Both the position numbers and the translations under genes were made by a program. 64,000 bases of DNA from Acetatifactor sp. (GTDB lineage Bacteria > Bacillota > Clostridia > Lachnospirales > Lachnospiraceae). The DNA lies in contig JAILHH010000020.1 in NCBI GenBank assembly GCA_024695935.1, positions 1 to 64,000 on the forward strand. Reading direction: 5' to 3'. Below the pieces are notes generated by a model that saw only the letters and a program-made list of their open reading frames with translations, ran no database searches and was not told the DNA's origin. Of the stretch, positions 4,991-32,198 are shown in pieces. The first letter of the stretch is position 1. Each line of letters begins with the position of its first letter.

Positions 4991-6229
4991 ATGAAACATA
5001 CATTGGTTGAAAAAATATTCGGAAATAAAGTGGGTCATGAGGTTAAACCGGGGGATATCATCACCGTTCCCGTTGACTGGTGCATGGTGGATGACATCAT
5101 GGCAAAGTTTTGTATCGGTAAATTCGAGGAGATGGGCTTTACAAAAGTTTATGATCCCGAAAAGATAGTCCTTATCTATGATCACTTCCTGCCATCCACT
5201 CAGGCGGATGATACGGTGGCATTTCATGCAGGTGATGCATTTGCGGAAAAATACGGTATCAAAAATGTCCACAGAACGGACGGAATCTGTCATCAGCTTA
5301 TGACTGAGGCAGGTTATGTAAAACCCGGTGATATCGCCTTTGGTACGGACAGTCATACCGTCACCTACGGCTGCGTGGGAGCTTTTTCCACGGGTATAGG
5401 ATATACGGAGATGGCAGGGATTTTGGGAACCGGTGAGATCTGGATAAAGGTTCCCGAGACCATAAAGGTTCAGATCGAAGGAAAGCTTAATGAGGGTGTC
5501 ACATCAAAGGATGTGATCCTGAGGATAATCGGGGACCTCACCGCATCGGGAGCCACTTATCAGGCACTTGAGTTTTGCGGAAGCACCGTGTCTGACATGA
5601 GCGTTGCATCCCGCATGACCATGACAAACATGGCAGTGGAAGCCGGCGCAAAATGCGGTATATGTATCCCTGATGAGAAAACCGCAGAGTATTGCAATAT
5701 CCCCTATGATGAAAAGATAAAGAATTTATGCCCGGACGAAGGAGCTTCTTACAGTAAAGTGCTTACATACAAGGCAGAGGATTTTGTGCCTGTCATGGCC
5801 TGCCCTTCACTTGTTGACAATATTCATCCCGTGTCTGAACTAAAGGGTACAAAGGTTGACGAAGTATTCCTGGGCTCTTGCACAAACGGAAGGCTTGAAG
5901 ACCTGCAGGCTGCGGCAGCTGTATTAAAGGGCAGAAAAAAAGCCCCTCACGTGCAGTTTATCGTTACTCCTGCCAGCAGAAAGGTTTATAAAGAGGCATT
6001 AAACGACGGAACTTTGGAGATACTTTCAAAAGCCGGTGCGATCATCACCACTCCCGGATGCGGACTTTGCTGTGGAAGAGCAGGCGGAGTTCTCACGGAT
6101 GATGAGGTAGTTGTTGCCACAAACAACCGCAATTTCCTTGGACGAATGGGAACGAGCAAAGTAAAGATTTATCTGGCAAGTCCGGTTATGGCAGCAAAGG
6201 CAGCGCTTTTCGGAGAGATCACAGAATAA
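4991..6229 (+). CDS. Isopropylmalate dehydratase-type large subunit, copy 2
   Basis: A 412-residue large subunit with canonical cluster ligands: Cys in GSCTNGR (about residue 297) and the pair in PGCGLCCGRAGG (about 357 and 360). It also has GTDSHTVTYGCVGAFSTGIG. Its motifs are closer to the usual LeuC pattern than those of copy 1, so this pair is the better candidate for ordinary isopropylmalate isomerase and copy 1 for a variant role. The ATG at 4991 follows GGGGGAAGTT. The operon ends at a 24-bp perfect inverted repeat. Confidence 0.85.
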   Translation: MKHTLVEKIFGNKVGHEVKPGDIITVPVDWCMVDDIMAKFCIGKFEEMGFTKVYDPEKIVLIYDHFLPSTQADDTVAFHAGDAFAEKYGIKNVHRTDGICHQLMTEAGYVKPGDIAFGTDSHTVTYGCVGAFSTGIGYTEMAGILGTGEIWIKVPETIKVQIEGKLNEGVTSKDVILRIIGDLTASGATYQALEFCGSTVSDMSVASRMTMTNMAVEAGAKCGICIPDEKTAEYCNIPYDEKIKNLCPDEGASYSKVLTYKAEDFVPVMACPSLVDNIHPVSELKGTKVDEVFLGSCTNGRLEDLQAAAAVLKGRKKAPHVQFIVTPASRKVYKEALNDGTLEILSKAGAIITTPGCGLCCGRAGGVLTDDEVVVATNNRNFLGRMGTSKVKIYLASPVMAAKAALFGEITE

Positions 6230-6230
6230 A

Positions 6231-6299
6231 CAGAAATAAAATAAAGCCCTTTGGAGAATGAGTCTATGACTTATCCCAAAGGGCTTTATTTTATTTCTG
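6231..6299. terminator. Bidirectional terminator between the convergent operons
   Basis: A perfect 24-bp inverted repeat (6231-6254 / 6276-6299) has a GC-rich core (GCCCTTTGG / CCAAAGGGC) flanked by A-rich and T-rich arms. It can therefore end transcription from both sides. It overlaps the last codons of apbE and begins 2 bp after the dehydratase operon. Confidence 0.9.
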
Positions 6300-7397
6300 A
6301 ATATAATCTTTAAATCCGTCGGTATAAACCTTGGTCTCATCCGCAAGGATCCACATCACTTCCGTGTCATCAAGGCTTTCTGCCAAAGCCTTTCCCTCCT
6401 CTAAACTCATGTTAAAGAGGGCAGTGGACAGGGCATCTCCCATTCCGGCATCCTTGTTTAAAATGGATACGGACAAGAATTCATTTTCCGGGAAAAGTGT
6501 GTCCGGGTTAATGATATGATGGTATCTGACTCCGTCCACAGTGTAGAATCTTTGATAACTTCCGCTGGTGGTTAGAGCCATATCGTTGATGCTTAGGACT
6601 TCGACATAATTTATTTCCGCCTCTGTATCGGGATTTTGGATAGCCACAGTCCAGCTTCCACCGTCGGGCTTTGGACCGATGCTTCTGACGTTTCCGCCTG
6701 CGTTTATGGTATAGTTTACGGCGCCCATCTCTCTTAAGCCTTCGGAGATGCGCTCTAAAGCATATCCTTTTGCAATGGCGCCCACATCGCATTTTAACAA
6801 TGGATCTTTGTAAAAAACAGTGAAGTTTTCTTCATCTATCACCACGTCGTCCATGTTGCAGTGCTTTGAAGCTTCTGTCAGTTCTTCCATGGAGGGAACC
6901 CTTGTCTTTGAAGGGTCGTTTAATGCTTCTTCCCTGTAATTATGCCAGATCTCGAGCACGGCGCCAAAGGCAAAATTTGTCTTTCCGTTTGTGTTCTCAT
7001 AAATTCTCTTTCCTTCTTTAAACAGAGCGATGATATCAGGGTCAACCTCTACGGGCTCTGTTCCTGCATGCTGATTTATGTAATAGAGGTTTACTCCGCC
7101 CGATGGAAGAGAGTTGTAATTGTCATACAATCCGTCCAGCCTTTGAAGTTCAGATTCAACATATTGACTTTTTTCAAGGAAATCTTCTTCGCTTTTCTCA
7201 TATCCGATGACATTTGTCACGGTATCAAAGTAGTCAAAGTACACTTCGGAATATTTTTCGGGAGCTTTTTCAAAGCCTAAATTCCCGTTGCATCCTGTAA
7301 GGGACAGTAGAGAAACAATAACAGTCAGGGGTAAGAGCTTTTTAAAGTTTTTTTCCCAGCCAAAAGTTTTTATATTGAAAGTGTCCGGTTTAAGCAT
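6291..7397 (-). CDS. apbE: FAD:protein FMN transferase
   Basis: A lipoprotein of about 368 residues that transfers FMN from FAD onto Thr/Ser of secreted or membrane proteins such as RnfG, RnfD and FMN-binding lipoproteins. Family marks are AGTEPVEVDPDI, the core DVGAIAKGYALERI, the NAGGNVRSIG loop, HHIINPDT and the metal/FAD-binding GMGDALSTALF near the C-terminus. The N-terminus has a hydrophobic segment ending in LSLTGC (lipobox), so the enzyme is anchored outside the membrane. The second ATG (7397) is preferred because AAAGGA sits 8 nt upstream; the first ATG (7406) overlaps that ribosome binding site. It is second in a minus-strand operon behind a probable substrate, and a hairpin lies between them. 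Confidence 0.93.
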   Translation of the reverse strand: MLKPDTFNIKTFGWEKNFKKLLPLTVIVSLLSLTGCNGNLGFEKAPEKYSEVYFDYFDTVTNVIGYEKSEEDFLEKSQYVESELQRLDGLYDNYNSLPSGGVNLYYINQHAGTEPVEVDPDIIALFKEGKRIYENTNGKTNFAFGAVLEIWHNYREEALNDPSKTRVPSMEELTEASKHCNMDDVVIDEENFTVFYKDPLLKCDVGAIAKGYALERISEGLREMGAVNYTINAGGNVRSIGPKPDGGSWTVAIQNPDTEAEINYVEVLSINDMALTTSGSYQRFYTVDGVRYHHIINPDTLFPENEFLSVSILNKDAGMGDALSTALFNMSLEEGKALAESLDDTEVMWILADETKVYTDGFKDYIQK

Positions 7398-7411
7398 TCT
7401 GTTCATCCTTT

Positions 7412-7444
7412 AACAAAAAAATAGGGAGGACATCAGTCCTCCCT
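7412..7444 (-). terminator. Intra-operon terminator/attenuator upstream of apbE
   Basis: On the minus strand a 9-bp perfect stem (AGGGAGGAC / GTCCTCCCT, loop TGAT) is followed by a run of seven T after one A, ending only a few bases before the apbE ribosome binding site. It should end most transcripts after the lipoprotein gene and let a fraction through to apbE. Confidence 0.75.
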
Positions 7445-7464
7445 GAATTATATCAGATTAATGA

Positions 7465-8481
7465 TTACTTTGAAACAGGCTCTGCATCAGCGATACCAAT
7501 TGCAATGATCTCCTGAAGAGGAGTGATTGAAATTGTACAACCTGCAAGAAGATCGGGATCAGCGCTTGTAGCGATGTTGTGGTGCTCATCCTTGGGCTCT
7601 GTAGCGATACCTGTAACCTCAGCAGATGTCTTTCCTACGATATAATCTTCGAAAGTACCTGCCTGCTGATACCACTCTGCGATAGCGTTTGCATAAGCAA
7701 CCATTCCGTAGTGCTTCTTGAGCTCTTTCTTTGAACCTTCGAAGTTGAATGCGGTTACGTTGCCTGTTGTATCAAAGCTGATCTTAGGCTGGATCTCATC
7801 GATAAGGTCAACGAGGATCTTGCCGTCTGCATCTGTTACAACTGCACTGAAGTTAGAGTACATATTTGCTGCACCCTCTGCCTCGTCAGATGCTGATGCT
7901 GTAGAAGAATCAACCTCTGTGCTTACGCCGAGACCGTGATTGAAAGAAGAAGCCTTGAAGCTCTTAGCATACTCATCATTCATAGCCTTAACGATTGCTT
8001 CTTTGAATACGTTTACGCCGATTGTACATCCTGCAAGGATAGCTTCATCAGCTGCAACTTCGTGACCTGATACGTTGAATGATGTTGCAAGATTAGCAAC
8101 TTCGTCAACTGTCATACCAACTACTGATTTAGCAAAGAAATCAGCCTGCTCGTTCCACTCAGCGATAGCGCCGCCGTATGTCTTCATGTTATAGTCAGCA
8201 CCCTTCTGCTGCTTAGAACGTGTGTCAACTTCGTTAGCTGCCTGAACCTGGCCGCCTTCGATAGTCATCTTTGTCTGTGCTACGTCAAGTTTGCATGAAA
8301 CAATCTTGCCGCTTGCATCTGTTACAACAGTGGCAACTGTTGCGTCAACCTGAGCGGTACCTTCTGAGGAACCGTCCTCAACTACAATACCCATTCCGAG
8401 GGTATATTCCTTCTCTCCACATCCTACGAGTGAAAACACCATAGATGAAGCAAGAAGAAGTGCCATTAATTTTTTCTTCAT
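7465..8481 (-). CDS. Two-domain FMN-binding lipoprotein
   Basis: A 338-residue secreted lipoprotein (signal peptide, lipobox LVGC with Cys21) built from two tandem FMN_bind domains, about residues 35-160 and 205-330, joined by a Ser/Ala/Glu-rich linker. This resembles PplA-type extracellular flavin proteins used in extracellular electron transfer. Each domain ends in a segment aligned to the flavinylation site but reading LAGCTIG (Thr153) and LAGCTIS (Thr316), with Cys in place of Ala of the usual GAT motif. Covalent FMN on these Thr residues is plausible, given the adjacent apbE, but not certain. Codon use is strongly biased, which suggests abundant protein. It is divergent from rnfC and shares a promoter element with it. 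Confidence 0.85.
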   Translation of the reverse strand: MKKKLMALLLASSMVFSLVGCGEKEYTLGMGIVVEDGSSEGTAQVDATVATVVTDASGKIVSCKLDVAQTKMTIEGGQVQAANEVDTRSKQQKGADYNMKTYGGAIAEWNEQADFFAKSVVGMTVDEVANLATSFNVSGHEVAADEAILAGCTIGVNVFKEAIVKAMNDEYAKSFKASSFNHGLGVSTEVDSSTASASDEAEGAANMYSNFSAVVTDADGKILVDLIDEIQPKISFDTTGNVTAFNFEGSKKELKKHYGMVAYANAIAEWYQQAGTFEDYIVGKTSAEVTGIATEPKDEHHNIATSADPDLLAGCTISITPLQEIIAIGIADAEPVSK

Positions 8482-8531
8482 AACTTTACCTCTTTAAATA
8501 ATGAAAATTTATTGTTTTTTAAACAGGATTA

Positions 8532-8560
8532 AGTATAAGAAAAAAGGGTGAAAATGTCAA
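8532..8560 (-). promoter_or_regulatory. Promoter of the flavin lipoprotein-apbE operon
   Basis: Read on the minus strand, TTGACA (8560-8555) and TATACT (8537-8532) are separated by exactly 17 bp, a near-consensus vegetative promoter. The -35 box is the end of the element ATTGTACGTTGAC, which is repeated at the rnfC promoter. Confidence 0.85.
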
Positions 8561-8667
8561 CGTACAATGTAAAAATCGATTTAATTAGCGTAAAAATTTG
8601 TGGTTTATGAGTAAAAGTTGTATGTAAATATAAACGAAGATAGTGTAAAATTTAATTGTACGTTGAC
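8556..8667. promoter_or_regulatory. 13-bp inverted repeat shared by the divergent promoters
   Basis: GTCAACGTACAAT at 8556-8568 and its perfect reverse complement at 8655-8667 are 86 bp apart. Each copy covers the -35 hexamer of its own divergent promoter plus eight bases upstream (ATTGTACG). The placement suits an activator or repressor that controls both operons together. It does not match the Rex site pattern. Confidence 0.7.
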
Positions 8668-8691
8668 TGATTGGACGCAAAATGATATAAC
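8663..8691 (+). promoter_or_regulatory. Promoter of the rnf operon
   Basis: TTGACT (8663-8668) and TATAAC (8686-8691) are spaced by 17 bp. They lie 46 bp upstream of the chosen rnfC start and overlap the right arm of the shared 13-bp element. Confidence 0.8.
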
Positions 8692-8737
8692 GGACTTTGT
8701 GTGTAAAAGAAAAGTGAAAAATGCTTGGGAGGTAATT

Positions 8738-10069
8738 ATGTCATTTTTCAAGATGAGTGGTGTAGTCGTTCCCCACATGAAAAACACCTGCAAGATGCAG
8801 GCGGAACGAATGCCGGCTCCCAAAAGGGTGGTCATTCCGATGAATATGCATATCGGAGCACCTGCTAAGCCGGTTGTACAGGAAGGAGATATTGTAGGCG
8901 TGGGCCAGCTTATCGGCGAGGCCGGAGGATTTGTCTCAAGTCCCGTGTACGCTTCAGTATCCGGAAAAGTAACAAAGGTCGACAAGATCGTGGCATTAAA
9001 CGGAGCATCAGCAGACGCGGTATTCATCGAGTCTGATGGGGAGATGCGTCCCTTCGAAGGTATCAAAGCTCCTTCGATAAACGGTTTTGAAGATTTTGTT
9101 GCAGCAGTAAGAGACAGCGGTATCGTGGGTCTTGGCGGAGCAGGCTTCCCCACGGCGGTAAAACTTGGTGTGAAGGACTTGTCACTTGTACAGGAAGTTC
9201 TCATCAACGGAGCCGAGTGCGAGCCTTATATCACCAGTGATACGAGAACCATGCTGGACAGAGCCGATGATATAAAGGAAGGAATCGAACTTCTGGAAAA
9301 ATATCTCGGTGCAAAGACGATCATCTTCGGTATTGAAAAGAACAAGCCTGAAGCCATCGCAAAAATGAAGGAAATTACGTCCGGAGACAGTGCCGTTTCC
9401 GTAAAGGAACTTCCCAGTATCTACCCTCAGGGCGGAGAGAAAGTTCTTATTTATAATCTTACCGGAAAAGTGGTACCCGAGGGAAAACTTCCTCTGGACG
9501 TGGGATGTATAGTAATTAATGTGACTACACTGGCATCAATTGCCAAATATATAAGGACAGGAATGCCTTTGGTAGAAAAATGCCTTACCGTTGACGGTTC
9601 CGCAGTGGCAAGTCCAAAGAATCTCATTGTTCCCATCGGAACAAGTCTCAGGGATGTCTATGAATTTGCAGGCGGCTTTAAGGCAGAGCCGAAGAAAGTA
9701 CTCCTGGGCGGACCCATGATGGGAATCGCAGTAAAAGACCTTGATCAGCCCGTGATGAAGAATACCAATGCAACATTGGCATTTGCTGAAAAGGAAGCAG
9801 AAAGACCCGAGGAAAATCCCTGTATCCACTGCGGCAGATGTGTAAACAGCTGTCCTCTCGGATTAAACCCCGTGGCATTTGCAAAGGCTCTCAGCTTAAA
9901 TGACTGTGAGGCTTTGGAAGAATTAAAGATCAATCTCTGTATGGAGTGCGGATGCTGTGCATTTAACTGCCCTGCAAAGAGAGATCTGATCGCCCGTCAT
10001 AAACTTGCAAAGAGCGAGCTTCGCACATATCAGCAAAAGCGTGCGGAGCAGGAAAAGAAGGAGGCATAG
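8738..10069 (+). CDS. rnfC: Rnf complex subunit C (NADH-binding Fe-S/FMN subunit)
   Basis: A 443-residue peripheral subunit that exchanges electrons with NAD(H) on the cytoplasmic face. It shows an N-terminal barrel-sandwich (residues 1-80), the flavin/NADH site GLGGAGFPTAVK, then NGAECEPYI, a SLBB-like part and, near the C-terminus, two [4Fe-4S] motifs: CIHCGRCVNSCP and CMECGCCAFNCP. The frame is open further upstream, but the start at 8738 has GGGAGG 6 nt before it and gives the normal N-terminus; upstream codons would fall inside the promoter. It is first gene of rnfCDGEA. Confidence 0.95.
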   Translation: MSFFKMSGVVVPHMKNTCKMQAERMPAPKRVVIPMNMHIGAPAKPVVQEGDIVGVGQLIGEAGGFVSSPVYASVSGKVTKVDKIVALNGASADAVFIESDGEMRPFEGIKAPSINGFEDFVAAVRDSGIVGLGGAGFPTAVKLGVKDLSLVQEVLINGAECEPYITSDTRTMLDRADDIKEGIELLEKYLGAKTIIFGIEKNKPEAIAKMKEITSGDSAVSVKELPSIYPQGGEKVLIYNLTGKVVPEGKLPLDVGCIVINVTTLASIAKYIRTGMPLVEKCLTVDGSAVASPKNLIVPIGTSLRDVYEFAGGFKAEPKKVLLGGPMMGIAVKDLDQPVMKNTNATLAFAEKEAERPEENPCIHCGRCVNSCPLGLNPVAFAKALSLNDCEALEELKINLCMECGCCAFNCPAKRDLIARHKLAKSELRTYQQKRAEQEKKEA

Positions 10070-10073
10070 AACA

Positions 10074-11009
10074 ATGGAAGAGAATTTAAAAGTGTCTGTG
10101 TCACCCCATATTTTTTCTAAGCGCACCACAAGTAATCTGATGCTTGACGTGGTCATAGCACTTATCCCCGCTGCAGTTGCATCCGTAGTGATCTTTGGAG
10201 CAAGGAGCCTTGCAGTGATCGCGACATGCGTACTTTGCAGTATTATATCTGAAACTTTATTTAATCTCATTGTAAAGAGAAAGCAGACCATCGGAGATTT
10301 CTCGGCAATAATCACAGGACTTTTGCTGGCACTCAATCTCCCTGTAAACATTCCTCTCTGGCAGGCAGCCATCGGTTCCTTTGTGGCGATCATCGTTGTA
10401 AAGAATCTCTTCGGAGGCCTTGGATACAATTTTGCAAACCCTGCCATCACAGGACGTATCTTCATGCTCATAGCTTTTACAGGCTCCATGACGGAGGCTG
10501 TTCTTCCCAAGGCAGTTGATACCGTTGCGGGAGCAACACCCCTTGGGGCACTTGCCATGGGCGAAGAGGTTGATGCAAGTCTCCTCGACATGTTCCTGGG
10601 ACTTCGCGGCGGTGCACTGGGTGAAACCTGTGCTCTTGCTCTTTTGATCGGAGGATTGTATCTGATCTGCCGCAAGGTGATCACATGGCATACACCTGTG
10701 ACATTTATACTTACGGTATTTGTACTTTCTCTTATCTATTCGGGAAGCTTTGAGACAGCTCTTATCTATGTCCTCTCAGGCGGACTTTTGATCGGTGCGA
10801 TCTTTATGGCAACGGATTACGTGACCACACCCACCACGGCTCTCGGTCAGGTGGTGTTCGGTCTCGGCTGCGGACTCATCACATGCCTTATCCGTTTCTA
10901 CGGCAGTTTCCCCGAAGGTGTATCCTTCTCAATACTGTTTATGAATATTCTCACACCATACATTGAGAAGCTCACCATGAAGAAACCCTTTGGAGGTGTG
11001 AAGAAATGA
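10074..11009 (+). CDS. rnfD: Rnf complex subunit D (flavinylated membrane subunit)
   Basis: A 311-residue integral membrane protein of the NqrB/RnfD family. It keeps GGLGYNFANPAITGR, the flavinylation motif DTVAGATPLG with Thr155 as expected covalent FMN acceptor, and the MATDYVTTPTT loop. The start ATG at 10074 follows AGGAGGCATAGAACA and lies 4 bp after rnfC; an earlier in-frame ATG lies inside rnfC. Unlike RnfA and RnfE in this operon, nothing in RnfD looks altered. Confidence 0.95.
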   Translation: MEENLKVSVSPHIFSKRTTSNLMLDVVIALIPAAVASVVIFGARSLAVIATCVLCSIISETLFNLIVKRKQTIGDFSAIITGLLLALNLPVNIPLWQAAIGSFVAIIVVKNLFGGLGYNFANPAITGRIFMLIAFTGSMTEAVLPKAVDTVAGATPLGALAMGEEVDASLLDMFLGLRGGALGETCALALLIGGLYLICRKVITWHTPVTFILTVFVLSLIYSGSFETALIYVLSGGLLIGAIFMATDYVTTPTTALGQVVFGLGCGLITCLIRFYGSFPEGVSFSILFMNILTPYIEKLTMKKPFGGVKK

Positions 11010-12247
11010 AAAACAATGTAAAAAGCGTGGTAACGCTCACAGCGCTTTGTGTTGTTGTGACAGGCGTTTTGGCGGTTACAAACTATTTCACGGCACCAAA
11101 GATCGAAGAAAACAAAAAAGCTGCCGCAAATGCGGCTTTCGTTGAGGTAATGCCTGAGGGAACAGGCTTTGAGGAGGTTGAACTCCCCGCAAACGCTCCC
11201 GCCACCGTGACAAATCTCTACAGAGAGACTTCAGGTCAGGGATATGTTGCAAAGCTTGTGACCACCAGCCAGTATTCATCAGGTGATATGGGTATCACCG
11301 TGGGAATCGGTACGGACGGTGTGATAAAAGGTGTTGCCATCACTTCCTATAATGAGACAAAAGATTTCGGCGACTATCCTTATTCATATGTGGGTGCAGA
11401 TTCCGCATTAAATGATATCGATGTGTTTGCCGGAGCTACATACTCATCAATGGCTTTCAAAAATGCCATTCTTGATACCTTCAATATGCTGATTGCAAAC
11501 GGAGATGTATCAGAGGGGCAAAAGAGTGCCGAGACACTTATGGCAGAACTTTTACCCACTGTATTTCCCGGAAGCTGTAACGGAAGCGGCCTTCCCCAGC
11601 TTGTTGAGACAGAGGCTGCAGGTTTTACAAAGGCATATGCCACAGGAAATGACACAGGTTTTGTCGCTCTCTCTGAGTCTGATGCAGGAACCGTTGTCAG
11701 CGTGATGAATGCCTTCGGAGCAGTAAAATGCTACGACCTTGAGGGTAATGAAGTGGCGGGACCCGTGGATGAAATGAAGGCTGCATTCAAAGTCCTTGCA
11801 GATGAAAACAAGGATGCCAACTTAAGTAATGCTCTTAAGGCTTACGGAGATGAGGCAGCTGAGATGACAGCACTTGAAAATGTACCCGCATTCGGTTCTG
11901 TGACAGGCGGATTTAGTGTGACAACAGAAGAAAATACATATTACATATTTAATATCAAGACCTTCGGATACATGAACGAACTCATGGAGATGGCAGTAGT
12001 TCTCGACTCAGAGGGCAAGGTTGTAAATTACAGAACAGTGACGGATCTGATCCTTCACGGCGAGTATTTTACAGAACACGGCCTCGATGACAAAGAAGCT
12101 TATCTTTCTCAGTTTAAGGGCGTGGATGAAGGAAGCTACTCCGACGAAACTGCTATCGTGACCGGAGCAACATTTACATCCGATGCGGTGAACGATTCAA
12201 TTCACTCTGCTTTTGATGCATTTAAGGCAGTAAAGGAGGCAGAATAA
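11006..12247 (+). CDS. rnfG: Double-length Rnf subunit G with two FMN domains
   Basis: The 413-residue protein has one N-terminal membrane anchor (about residues 9-29) and two FMN_bind domains facing outside. Domain 1 ends in DVFAGATYSS (acceptor Thr145) and domain 2 in AIVTGATFTS (Thr389), so two covalent flavins are expected. Standard RnfG is about 190-210 residues with a single domain. The second domain is not a copy of the first at nucleotide level, so the fusion is old. It overlaps rnfD by 4 bp and rnfE by one base, so it is translated with them. The extra flavin would extend the extracytoplasmic electron path. Confidence 0.9.
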   Translation: MKNNVKSVVTLTALCVVVTGVLAVTNYFTAPKIEENKKAAANAAFVEVMPEGTGFEEVELPANAPATVTNLYRETSGQGYVAKLVTTSQYSSGDMGITVGIGTDGVIKGVAITSYNETKDFGDYPYSYVGADSALNDIDVFAGATYSSMAFKNAILDTFNMLIANGDVSEGQKSAETLMAELLPTVFPGSCNGSGLPQLVETEAAGFTKAYATGNDTGFVALSESDAGTVVSVMNAFGAVKCYDLEGNEVAGPVDEMKAAFKVLADENKDANLSNALKAYGDEAAEMTALENVPAFGSVTGGFSVTTEENTYYIFNIKTFGYMNELMEMAVVLDSEGKVVNYRTVTDLILHGEYFTEHGLDDKEAYLSQFKGVDEGSYSDETAIVTGATFTSDAVNDSIHSAFDAFKAVKEAE

Positions 12248-12885
12248 TGAATAAAACAGCAATTTTCCTTAAGGGAATCATCAAAGAAAATCCCGTGCTG
12301 GTGCTGGTTTTAGGCGCATGCCCCACACTTGCCGTGACCACAAACGTGCTTGCAGCTCTCTATATGGGTATTGCGGTTTTGGCAGTCCTTGTTTGCTCAA
12401 ACCTTTGTATCTCAGCTCTAAAGAATCTGATCGGAGATAATTTAAAATTTGTTGCAAACATCCTGATAATTACAGGCTTTGTGAGCCTTGTTCAGATGCT
12501 TATGGGAGCATTTCTTCCAAAGGCTTCCGATATGCTCGGTATTTATTTTACATTGATAGCCGTAAACGGTGTCCTTCTCTGTGAGGCCGGTGATTTCGCC
12601 CGCAATAATAAAGTTGTGGATTCGGTTTTAAGCGCTTTGGGAACGGGAATAGGATTTACCTGTGCTCTGTTTGTCATCGCACTTGTCAGAGAGATTTTCG
12701 GAAACGGAACCTTTGCCGGAATCGAGATCCCTTTCCTTGCAGATTACAAGATATCACTTTTAAATGCAACTCCCGGAGGATTTTTGGTACTGGGCCTTGT
12801 TATGGCTCTTCTATCTGCCATCAACAAAAAGCCCGTCGAAGAGATCTGCTTTGAAAATCAAAAGGAGGGCGAAGTAAATGCTTAA
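12247..12885 (+). CDS. rnfE: Rnf complex subunit E, one Fe-S cysteine replaced
   Basis: A 212-residue six-helix membrane subunit of the NqrD/RnfE family. In the first inverted half it keeps the cysteine motif LGACPTLAVTT (Cys25). In the second half the usual NC(I/V)(I/V)(L/V)GRAEAFA reads NGVLLCEAGDFA: the ligand Cys is Gly108 and a Cys appears four residues later (Cys112). The downstream CALFVIALVREIFGNGT block is conserved, so the alignment is secure. In Nqr/Rnf these cysteines bind an intramembrane [2Fe-2S] cluster shared with RnfA. The ATG overlaps the rnfG stop. Confidence 0.9.
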   Translation: MNKTAIFLKGIIKENPVLVLVLGACPTLAVTTNVLAALYMGIAVLAVLVCSNLCISALKNLIGDNLKFVANILIITGFVSLVQMLMGAFLPKASDMLGIYFTLIAVNGVLLCEAGDFARNNKVVDSVLSALGTGIGFTCALFVIALVREIFGNGTFAGIEIPFLADYKISLLNATPGGFLVLGLVMALLSAINKKPVEEICFENQKEGEVNA

Positions 12886-13471
12886 AAGTCTTTTGGTCAT
12901 AATGATGTCGTCAGTGCTCGTAAACAATTATGTATTTTCAAGATACATGGGCTTTGACAGGATGTTTGATACGTCAAAAAAGGCAAAAAAAGTCGGAAGC
13001 TTCGGACTTTTGGTCACAGTTGTGATGGTGCTTGCAGCCCTTGTTACATGGCCTCTTAACGCCTTTGTGATGGAGCCGCTTGGACTTAACTTCCTTCAGA
13101 CGGTATGCTTTGTATTTATAATTGCGGGAATATCTTTCCTTGCTGAAATTGTGATAAAAAAATGTTTCCCCGCTCTTTATACTGAGCTTGGAAATGTATG
13201 GCCCCTTATCCTGTGTAACAGTGCTGTTCTGGGTGTTACCCTCAGCAATATTTCCGCAGGATACGGATTCGGAGAGTCAGTATTTTCATCTCTCGGATGC
13301 GGCCTCGGATTTCTCCTTGCAATGTGGATGTTTGGCGGAGTAAAGGACAGACTTGAGATCGCTGTTCCTCCCAAATACTTTAAGGGGATTCCTATTCTTC
13401 TCATCTCTGCATTCATTGTCTCACTTGCCTTTTATGGATTTGGCGGTATCATCGAGACGATATTTGCATAA
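12878..13471 (+). CDS. rnfA: Rnf complex subunit A, both Fe-S cysteines replaced
   Basis: A 197-residue six-helix membrane subunit of the NqrE/RnfA family. It aligns end to end with the family (SSVLVNNYVFSRYMGF, SAVLGVTLSNI, VKDRLEIAVPPKYFKG, FYGFGGI). The two cluster cysteines are gone: the GLCPF motif reads GFDRM (Asp27) and TTNCAVLG reads LCNSAVLG (Ser115), with a non-aligned Cys at 113. It overlaps rnfE by 8 bp and is the last gene before a terminator. The usual following gene, rnfB, is absent. Confidence 0.9.
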   Translation: MLKSLLVIMMSSVLVNNYVFSRYMGFDRMFDTSKKAKKVGSFGLLVTVVMVLAALVTWPLNAFVMEPLGLNFLQTVCFVFIIAGISFLAEIVIKKCFPALYTELGNVWPLILCNSAVLGVTLSNISAGYGFGESVFSSLGCGLGFLLAMWMFGGVKDRLEIAVPPKYFKGIPILLISAFIVSLAFYGFGGIIETIFA

Positions 13472-13483
13472 CTTTTAAATTAT

Positions 13484-13531
13484 AAAAATCAGCACCCGCT
13501 TGCCTCAAAAGGTGAACAGGTGCTGTTTTTA
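13484..13531 (+). terminator. Terminator of the rnf operon
   Basis: CAGCACC (13490-13496) pairs with GGTGCTG (13519-13525), followed by TTTTTAT and preceded by an A-rich arm. It begins 13 bp after the rnfA stop, so the operon really ends at rnfA. Confidence 0.85.
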
Positions 13532-13569
13532 TAGTACTAAAACAATATAAATATGGTAAAATAACTGAT

Positions 13570-14001
13570 ATGAAGACAGACAGAGATCATGAAAATAAAT
13601 CAGAAAAAAATACCGGTGACAGGTCGGTATCATATAAAAAGGATATTATCTTTATAGGCATATTTATTCTGGTGGGACTCTTTTTAGCCGCAGTGGTCTT
13701 TTTGACAAAGCAGACCGGAAAGAGTGTCACGGTAAGTGTATCCGGAAAAGATGTCATAAGCTTTAACCTGGATGAAGACAGGGAGTATATGATAGAGGGA
13801 AAAGACGGCGGACAAAACCTCCTTATCATACGTGGCGGCAAGGCCTGGATCGAGGAGGCCAACTGCAGGGACGGCCTCTGTATCAATATGGGAAAGATCG
13901 ATTCCGTAGGTCAGTCGGTCATATGCCTTCCAAATGAAGTGGTGGTCAGTATCGGCAGTGGAGAGGTAACGGATGAGGGACCGGACATTGTGGTATATTG
14001 A
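13570..14001 (+). CDS. NusG domain II-containing exported protein
   Basis: A 143-residue protein with a charged N-terminus, one transmembrane segment (about residues 26-47) and an extracytoplasmic NusG_II-type beta domain. It contains VSVSGKDVISFNLDED, the conserved EANCRDGLCINMGKI disulfide/cysteine pair and SVICLPNEVVVSI. Its biochemical role is not established. It is recurrently found with Gx transporters, ApbE and FMN-binding proteins, as here, which hints at an accessory role in extracytoplasmic redox or quinone chemistry. The start at 13570 has only a weak ribosome binding site. Confidence 0.8.
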   Translation: MKTDRDHENKSEKNTGDRSVSYKKDIIFIGIFILVGLFLAAVVFLTKQTGKSVTVSVSGKDVISFNLDEDREYMIEGKDGGQNLLIIRGGKAWIEEANCRDGLCINMGKIDSVGQSVICLPNEVVVSIGSGEVTDEGPDIVVY

Positions 14002-14044
14002 GAAAAAGTTTTTCCCTTTGTTTACACAGATCATGGAGAAATAA

Positions 14045-14542
14045 ATGAAAACTTCGAAATTTACAAAATACGGGCTGTTGATCGCCCTGGCGCTTATCAT
14101 GAGCTATATTGAGGCTCAGGTCCCCGTGTTTTTTGCAATACCGGGTATAAAGCTTGGCCTTACAAATGTTGTTGTGCTCTTTGCGCTTTATGCCATGGAT
14201 TTTAAAAGCGCCTTTATCATCAATATTTTCAGGATCATCCTGGTGGGCTTTATGTTCGGAAACGGCGTGAGTATCCTCTTTTCACTTGCCGGAGGGTTCT
14301 TAAGCCTGTTGGTCATGGTGCTGTTAAAGAAATTTACGGGACTAAAGATAATCACCGTTTCGGTGGCCGGCGGTATTGCTCATAACATCGGTCAGATAAT
14401 AGTAGCCATGCTGATGCTTCAGACCCGCTCCATTGCATGGTATCTGCTGGTACTCTGGTTTACGGGTATTGCCGCGGGAGTGCTGGTGGGTGTTATCGGC
14501 GGCGAGATAGTAAAGAGAGTCAGATGGGAGGATCAGAATTGA
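14045..14542 (+). CDS. Gx transporter family (heptaprenyl diphosphate synthase component I-like) membrane protein
   Basis: A 165-residue protein with five to six hydrophobic segments. It starts with the family pattern YGLLIALALIMSYIEAQVP and continues with GIKLGLTNVVVLFALY, ending in VLVGVIGGEIVKRV. The family (Hpre_diP_synt_I) was first described as the small subunit of heptaprenyl diphosphate synthase, but its fold resembles ECF-type substrate-binding membrane components. No polyprenyl synthetase follows here, so a transport role is more likely. It lies 43 bp after the NusG_II gene and overlaps the rhomboid gene. Confidence 0.8.
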   Translation: MKTSKFTKYGLLIALALIMSYIEAQVPVFFAIPGIKLGLTNVVVLFALYAMDFKSAFIINIFRIILVGFMFGNGVSILFSLAGGFLSLLVMVLLKKFTGLKIITVSVAGGIAHNIGQIIVAMLMLQTRSIAWYLLVLWFTGIAAGVLVGVIGGEIVKRVRWEDQN

Positions 14543-25137: not shown

Positions 25138-25602
25138 ATGAAAATATCAACCAAGGGGCGATACGGTCTGAGGGCTATGCTGGACCTTGCAAAGCATGAC
25201 ATTGACGGCGAGGCAGTGAGTGTGCAGAGTATCTCCCAGAGACAGAATATATCCGAAAGTTATCTGGAGCAGTTAGTGAGGCTTCTCAGAACTGCGGGGC
25301 TTATCCAAAGTGTCCGTGGAGCCGGAGGAGGATACAAACTGGCAAAATCTCCCGACAAGATTTCGGTGGGAGACGTTTTAAGAGCCTGCGAAGGAGATAT
25401 CGAGGTTGTTTCCTGCGGAAATTCCGGGGATGATGAGAGCTCCTGCAATCAGGCAGAGCGTTGCGTTGCCAGGATCGTGTGGGAGACGGTAAACAATGCC
25501 ATCGAGGATGCGGTGGATTCACTTTCTCTTCAGAAACTGATCGATGAGAGCAAAGATATAGACAGCGAGCAGCTTTTGGATACTGCAAAATGTGTGAATT
25601 GA
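25138..25602 (+). CDS. iscR: Rrf2/IscR-family Fe-S cluster regulator
   Basis: A 154-residue winged-helix regulator starting with KISTKGRYGLRAMLDLA. It has a recognition region ISESYLEQLVRLLRTAGLIQSVRGAGGGYKLAK (about residues 43-75) and three cysteines, CGNSGDDESSCNQAERC (about 100-116), placed as the [2Fe-2S] ligands of IscR. It should sense Fe-S status and control the suf genes that follow 21 bp downstream. The spacing of the first two cysteines is longer than in E. coli IscR. The start has GCGAAAGG upstream. Confidence 0.85.
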   Translation: MKISTKGRYGLRAMLDLAKHDIDGEAVSVQSISQRQNISESYLEQLVRLLRTAGLIQSVRGAGGGYKLAKSPDKISVGDVLRACEGDIEVVSCGNSGDDESSCNQAERCVARIVWETVNNAIEDAVDSLSLQKLIDESKDIDSEQLLDTAKCVN

Positions 25603-31775: not shown

Positions 31776-32198
31776 ATGAAAATTTCGACCAAGGGCAGAT
31801 ATGCCTTACGCCTTATGCTGGATCTGGCAACCTACAACACAGGAGAGCCGGTATCCCTGAAAAATGTGGCAAGCCGCCAGGAGATCTCGGAGAAATATCT
31901 TGAGCAGATAATATCCATTCTCAATAAAGCAGGCTTTGTAAAAAGTATAAGGGGTGCATCCGGAGGGTATTTCCTTTCGAGGGAACCAAAGGAGTATACT
32001 GTGGGAATGATCCTGAGACTTACGGAGGGTGATCTTACCGCAGTTGATTACAAGGATGAAGCTGAAGTTGGAAACGGTTATGTAACGGTAAAGGTTTGGC
32101 AGAAAATGGATGAAGCCGTAAACGGTGTGATAGACAGTATCACACTGGAGGATCTGAAAAACTGGCAGACCGAGGAAAATGACTTTTATTGTATTTAA
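31776..32198 (+). CDS. cymR: Rrf2-family sulfur-metabolism regulator (CymR-like)
   Basis: A 140-residue Rrf2 regulator (KISTKGRYALRLMLDLA, ISEKYLEQIISILNKAGFVKSIRGASGGYFLSR) without the three Fe-S cysteines of IscR. Its N-terminal half is closely related to the regulator at 25138, but the effector half has diverged. The absence of cluster ligands and the operon with cysK both point to the CymR type, which uses CysK as its sensor partner. The ATG at 31776 follows ACGGAGAAGTGTT. Confidence 0.85.
   Translation: MKISTKGRYALRLMLDLATYNTGEPVSLKNVASRQEISEKYLEQIISILNKAGFVKSIRGASGGYFLSREPKEYTVGMILRLTEGDLTAVDYKDEAEVGNGYVTVKVWQKMDEAVNGVIDSITLEDLKNWQTEENDFYCI

Follow-up and report, generated by a model that had tools for sequence, protein, structure and literature searches.

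In classical divergent regulation, back-to-back promoters carry matching sites of one operator type at equal positions. Among Rnf-type complexes, the E. coli SoxRS response co-activates rsxABCDGE, rseC and apbE (PMC12174285), and in Clostridium ljungdahlii rnfCDGEAB is under RseC-dependent control (PMC9124969). In Cad (cAD1 precursor)/PplA clusters a two-domain lipoprotein adjoins apbE, with an Hpre_diP_synt_I protein encoded nearby, and cad-apbE pairs are stated to occur only in genomes without rnf (PMC7074142). A different type of example is provided by the NQR/RNF-like one-way systems, mainly of Actinobacteria and CPR, where a partial Rnf, its RnfD fused to an NqrF domain, lies beside flavinylation genes and electrons presumably pass from NAD(P)H to the outside (PMC8238504).

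The locus considered here is in a 64,000-nucleotide stretch of DNA (the window) from Acetatifactor sp., a rumen-type gut bacterium with a 96.6%-complete genome of 2,643,724 bases (2.64 Mb). A 256-bp intergenic region (8482-8737) separates a lipoprotein gene and apbE on the minus strand from an rnfCDGEA operon on the plus strand (Table 1), and its two outward promoters carry matching sites at equal positions. To that extent the likeness to classical divergent promoters is close; the locus differs in that its sites are distinct copies, inverted relative to each other at a distance of 99 bp, and in that there is no regulator gene at the divergent junction. The E. coli system, though from another phylum, counts as a precedent for common control of an Rnf-type complex and ApbE, while the C. 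ljungdahlii parallel is rnf operon regulation in a Firmicute, the complex here differing in being without RnfB. Control by RseC is rejected, as a family search of the genome gave no match for its gene. With the Cad/PplA clusters the locus shares the two-domain lipoprotein adjoining apbE and the nearby Hpre_diP_synt_I gene, the lipoprotein motif being SGAT there and AGCT here. That this genome has two rnf operons (window 6291-14542, and a second on another contig, L066) contradicts the statement on cad-apbE pairs. A partial Rnf beside flavinylation genes is also what the NQR/RNF-like systems have; unlike in them, each of RnfC, RnfD, RnfG, RnfE and RnfA is a separate protein here.

Table 1. Features of the divergent locus, with coordinates in the window.
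Feature	Coordinates	Strand	Remarks
apbE, FAD:protein FMN transferase	6291..7406	-	sole ApbE match in genome
Intrinsic terminator between lipoprotein gene and apbE	7423..7444	-	z = -4.2 for surrounding 56 nt
Cad/PplA-like lipoprotein	7465..8481	-	lipobox and two repeats, each ending AGCTI (SGAT-like motif)
Lipoprotein promoter TTGACA-17-TATACT	8532..8560	-	11/12; no substitutions in congener
13-bp element ATTGTACGTTGAC, copy 1	8556..8568	-	TTGAC is -35 of lipoprotein promoter; identical in congener
Five GTAAA repeats	8569, 8590, 8611, 8624, 8645 (8569..8649)	+	spacings 21, 21, 13, 21 bp
13-bp element ATTGTACGTTGAC, copy 2	8655..8667	+	TTGAC is -35 of rnf promoter; identical in congener
rnf promoter TTGACT-17-TATAAC	8663..8691	+	extended TGA before -10; one spacer substitution in congener
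rnfC	8738..10069	+	family profile match
rnfD	10074..11009	+	family profile match
rnfG, two FMN-binding domains	11006..12247	+	domain match
rnfE	12247..12885	+	one of two cluster cysteines replaced
rnfA	12878..13471	+	both cluster cysteines replaced
NusG domain II protein (EetA-like by context)	13570..14001	+	recurrent neighbour in other genera
Hpre_diP_synt_I protein (EetB-like by context)	14045..14542	+	recurrent neighbour in other genera

The shared element, ATTGTACGTTGAC, has the structure ATTGTACG(TTGAC), its TTGAC part belonging to the -35 box. Exact matches in the window number two, one per strand, and when up to one mismatch is allowed across the entire genome the same two intergenic sites are recovered and no third. 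The statement of the preliminary description that each copy supplies the -35 of a promoter with 17-bp spacing is borne out. Its term near-consensus suits the minus-strand promoter, which the promoter scan ranks as the top promoter-like site of positions 6200-14200, and is slightly generous for the plus-strand one, whose -10 is without the final T and which hence goes unlisted by the scan. Promoter-like sites in the region are in any case at the level of chance (14 against a shuffled mean of 13.9), so promoter scores alone prove little and the evidence lies in the common element and its conservation. Identity between the copies ends sharply at 13 bp, with differing flanks on both sides, which is the pattern of a binding site and not of promoter duplication. 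There is no clear dyad within the 13 bp, and an Rfam search of the window for structured RNA gave no match.

Conservation was assessed in one congener (G001, locus L023, which matches the contig of the yak rumen Lachnospiraceae MAG RGIG10340), whose locus is 86.6% identical over 6.6 kb. Both copies of the element are 100% identical in it and have the same orientation, and the occurrence of the locus in two genomes makes an assembly artefact less likely. Element and promoters together differ at 1 of 74 bases, as against 9 of the 86 (10.5%) in the linker that the inverted copies enclose (Fisher p = 0.02), a contrast which favours common control and which is based on a single pairwise comparison within a genus represented by two genomes. 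The footprint is weakened in that the entire lipoprotein/intergenic stretch is unusually conserved: third-position differences amount to 12% in the lipoprotein gene, 24% in rnfC and 29% in rnfD. High expression is a possible cause of the few third-position changes in the lipoprotein gene.

Outside the genus the picture is different. Exact matches to ATTGTACGTTGAC in 395 genomes of the family number six, compared with about 34 for a reversed control, and the contexts inspected are unrelated, mostly coding sequence; with stray matches rarer than the control, a family-wide motif is rejected. The other genera examined lack the element ahead of their rnf and lipoprotein genes, this genome lacks it ahead of its second rnf operon, and on the sequences compared the motif is restricted to the genus. 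The conservation expected of orthologous intergenic regions is, then, present in the congener and absent in other genera. A wider regulon is also rejected, there being no third site, and promoter-shaped near matches at two or three mismatches preceding unrelated genes, e.g. tyrS-like and ilvE-like. Control would accordingly be local.

On the best reading of the sequence, the two divergent operons are probably under common control, expression of the rnf-like operon rising and falling with that of the flavolipoprotein gene through matching putative sites for one regulator. A single regulator would bind ATTGTACG, which in both promoters covers about -36 to -43, in an orientation that is alike relative to each RNA polymerase, and expression of the two would move in parallel. 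Repression, via blocking of the -35, would be a little likelier than activation, since both promoters already have good -35 boxes and a good spacing of 17 bp. What argues for common control is that the two promoters carry, at equal positions, an exact inverted 13-mer whose rarity is evident from shuffling and from comparison of pairs: dinucleotide shuffling of the intergenic region yields a 13-bp inverted match in 7 of 5,000 rounds, and all eight upstream bases are common to 19 of 226,801 TTGAC pairs from the collected loci. The earlier claim that such a match is unlikely by chance is upheld by these counts; from composition, eight matching bases beside two aligned TTGAC have an expectation of ~1e-4. 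Counted against common control are the want of a clear dyad, of a third genome site and of conservation outside the genus. Coincidence, i.e. two good -35 boxes that happen to have eight upstream bases alike, would sit well with the restriction to one genus and with the way 13-mers arise by chance across genomes, as the stray matches and their reversed control illustrate, but is quite improbable given the chance of ~0.0014 within the 256-bp region and the intactness of both copies in the congener. Scarcely credible is an invertible or recombining segment of which the copies would be the inverted repeats. The geometry, 13-bp repeats enclosing 86 bp, is what it would require, but flipping the segment would not alter either promoter, and the identical orientation in the congener is the ground for its rejection.

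An alternative of another kind is that the shared bases do no more than adjust how strong each promoter is intrinsically, through contacts made upstream of the -35 by alpha or by sigma region 4 of RNA polymerase and without a dedicated regulator. The element does abut both -35 boxes, the DNA upstream is A/T-rich and phased, and the near matches before the tyrS-like and ilvE-like genes are promoter-shaped; however, GTACG is not A-tract-like and what the other sites mostly have in common is T-rich bases and not ATTGTACG, making this explanation rather unlikely. It is also conceivable, though very improbable, that the true control site is the phased GTAAA array between the copies, e.g. response-regulator boxes arrayed in tandem along one face of the DNA, with the 13-mer secondary. 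Shuffles contain a mean of 1.3 GTAAA copies, with at least five reached in 9 of 5,000; three 21-bp intervals between copies occur in 1 of 5,000, the exact GTAAA triple is unique in the genome, and all 25 GTAAA bases are unchanged in the congener. Against this, the pattern was noticed post hoc, the P for chance sparing is 0.04, phased A-tracts would look identical, and the repeats all point one way and hence are not symmetric for two promoters. Under common control through the 13-bp element, the GTAAA repeats may bend the DNA as phased A-tracts or form the array of a second protein, and are a lead in that respect. More loosely defined, GTAAA/GTGAAA repeats with 21-bp spacing extend across 8548-8649, between the divergent promoters.

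For the product of the minus-strand gene, Pfam and NCBIfam gave no family match. A six-member profile of the lipoprotein nevertheless matches PDB 2kzx (E 2.9e-7), and a single-sequence search, weak at E 0.007, aligns its AGCTI with SGATI of the 2kzx protein. D310 and T316 are invariant in six relatives, the S/G/A positions of the motif being variable. With a lipobox, two repeated domains and linkage to apbE all present, the protein is Cad/PplA-like, and flavin would be attached to it. Between it and apbE stands a terminator, a 9-bp hairpin (six G-C pairs) followed by a T run, which is kept in the congener and has terminator-like counterparts at the equivalent spot in loci of other genera (L067, L070, L077 and L085). 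Since this terminator is strong and conserved, the lipoprotein promoter reaches apbE only by read-through, and the preliminary description, in which one promoter drives both genes, applies fully to the lipoprotein gene alone. The promoter would thus yield mostly lipoprotein message, giving many substrate copies per enzyme, and ApbE, at a lower level from behind the terminator, would attach the flavins. The second Rnf, too, would depend on this enzyme, the single ApbE match in the genome. The wider claim, of shared control of the complex, the lipoprotein and the flavin loader, gains from the same element, its equal -35 placement and its conservation in the congener, and is to be narrowed with respect to the lack of a wider regulon, the single genus and the dependence of apbE on read-through.

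The complex of the plus-strand operon departs from an ordinary Rnf. Canonical Rnf has RnfB and four RnfA/E cysteines, which hold a [2Fe-2S] cluster (PMC12174285). At the window locus rnfB is absent, the only rnfB of the genome above the cut-off being in the second operon, a canonical rnfCDGEAB at ~116-121.5 kb of contig 25, and comparison with 9eri, a Na+-translocating Rnf of solved structure, shows three of the four cysteines replaced, in RnfA by D and by S and in RnfE by G. Of these replacements the congener shares those at the first RnfA and the second RnfE position; the other RnfA site lies beyond the end of the congener contig. In relatives with RnfB (L077, L085, L030 and L031) all four cysteines are kept. 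In another set of clusters (L081, L084 and L086) lipoprotein and apbE genes precede rnfC, rnfD and a gene resembling rnfG, none of rnfE, rnfA and rnfB being recognised within the stretch read; these are possibly a minimal electron exporter. A further cluster, L083, ends within rnfD. Such collinearity of lipoprotein-apbE pairs with rnfC-rnfD, or with rnfCDGEAB, in other genera points to functional linkage independently of the motif.

The missing rnfB, the replaced cysteines, the RnfG with two FMN domains and the reduced clusters of relatives together fit one-way electron flow from NADH to the outside, and we infer this direction for the window complex, an exporter paired with the Cad/PplA-like flavolipoprotein. 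That the element controls a dedicated export module is held tentatively, at slightly under an even chance: an Rnf without its ferredoxin arm (no RnfB and no RnfA/E cluster) would pass electrons one way, from NADH via RnfC, RnfD and the two-flavin RnfG to the surface flavolipoprotein, beside a normal energy-conserving Rnf. If true, a second Rnf can turn from ion pump into electron exporter, and regulation in rumen Lachnospiraceae would be tied to a flavin-based route of electron export starting from an Rnf-derived complex. The promoter pair is a concrete starting point for a regulator search. Elsewhere in the window, and not linked to the rnf locus, are two genes for regulators of Rrf2 type by sequence appearance (25138-25602 and 31776-32198), one beside suf-like genes and the other beside a cysK-like gene.
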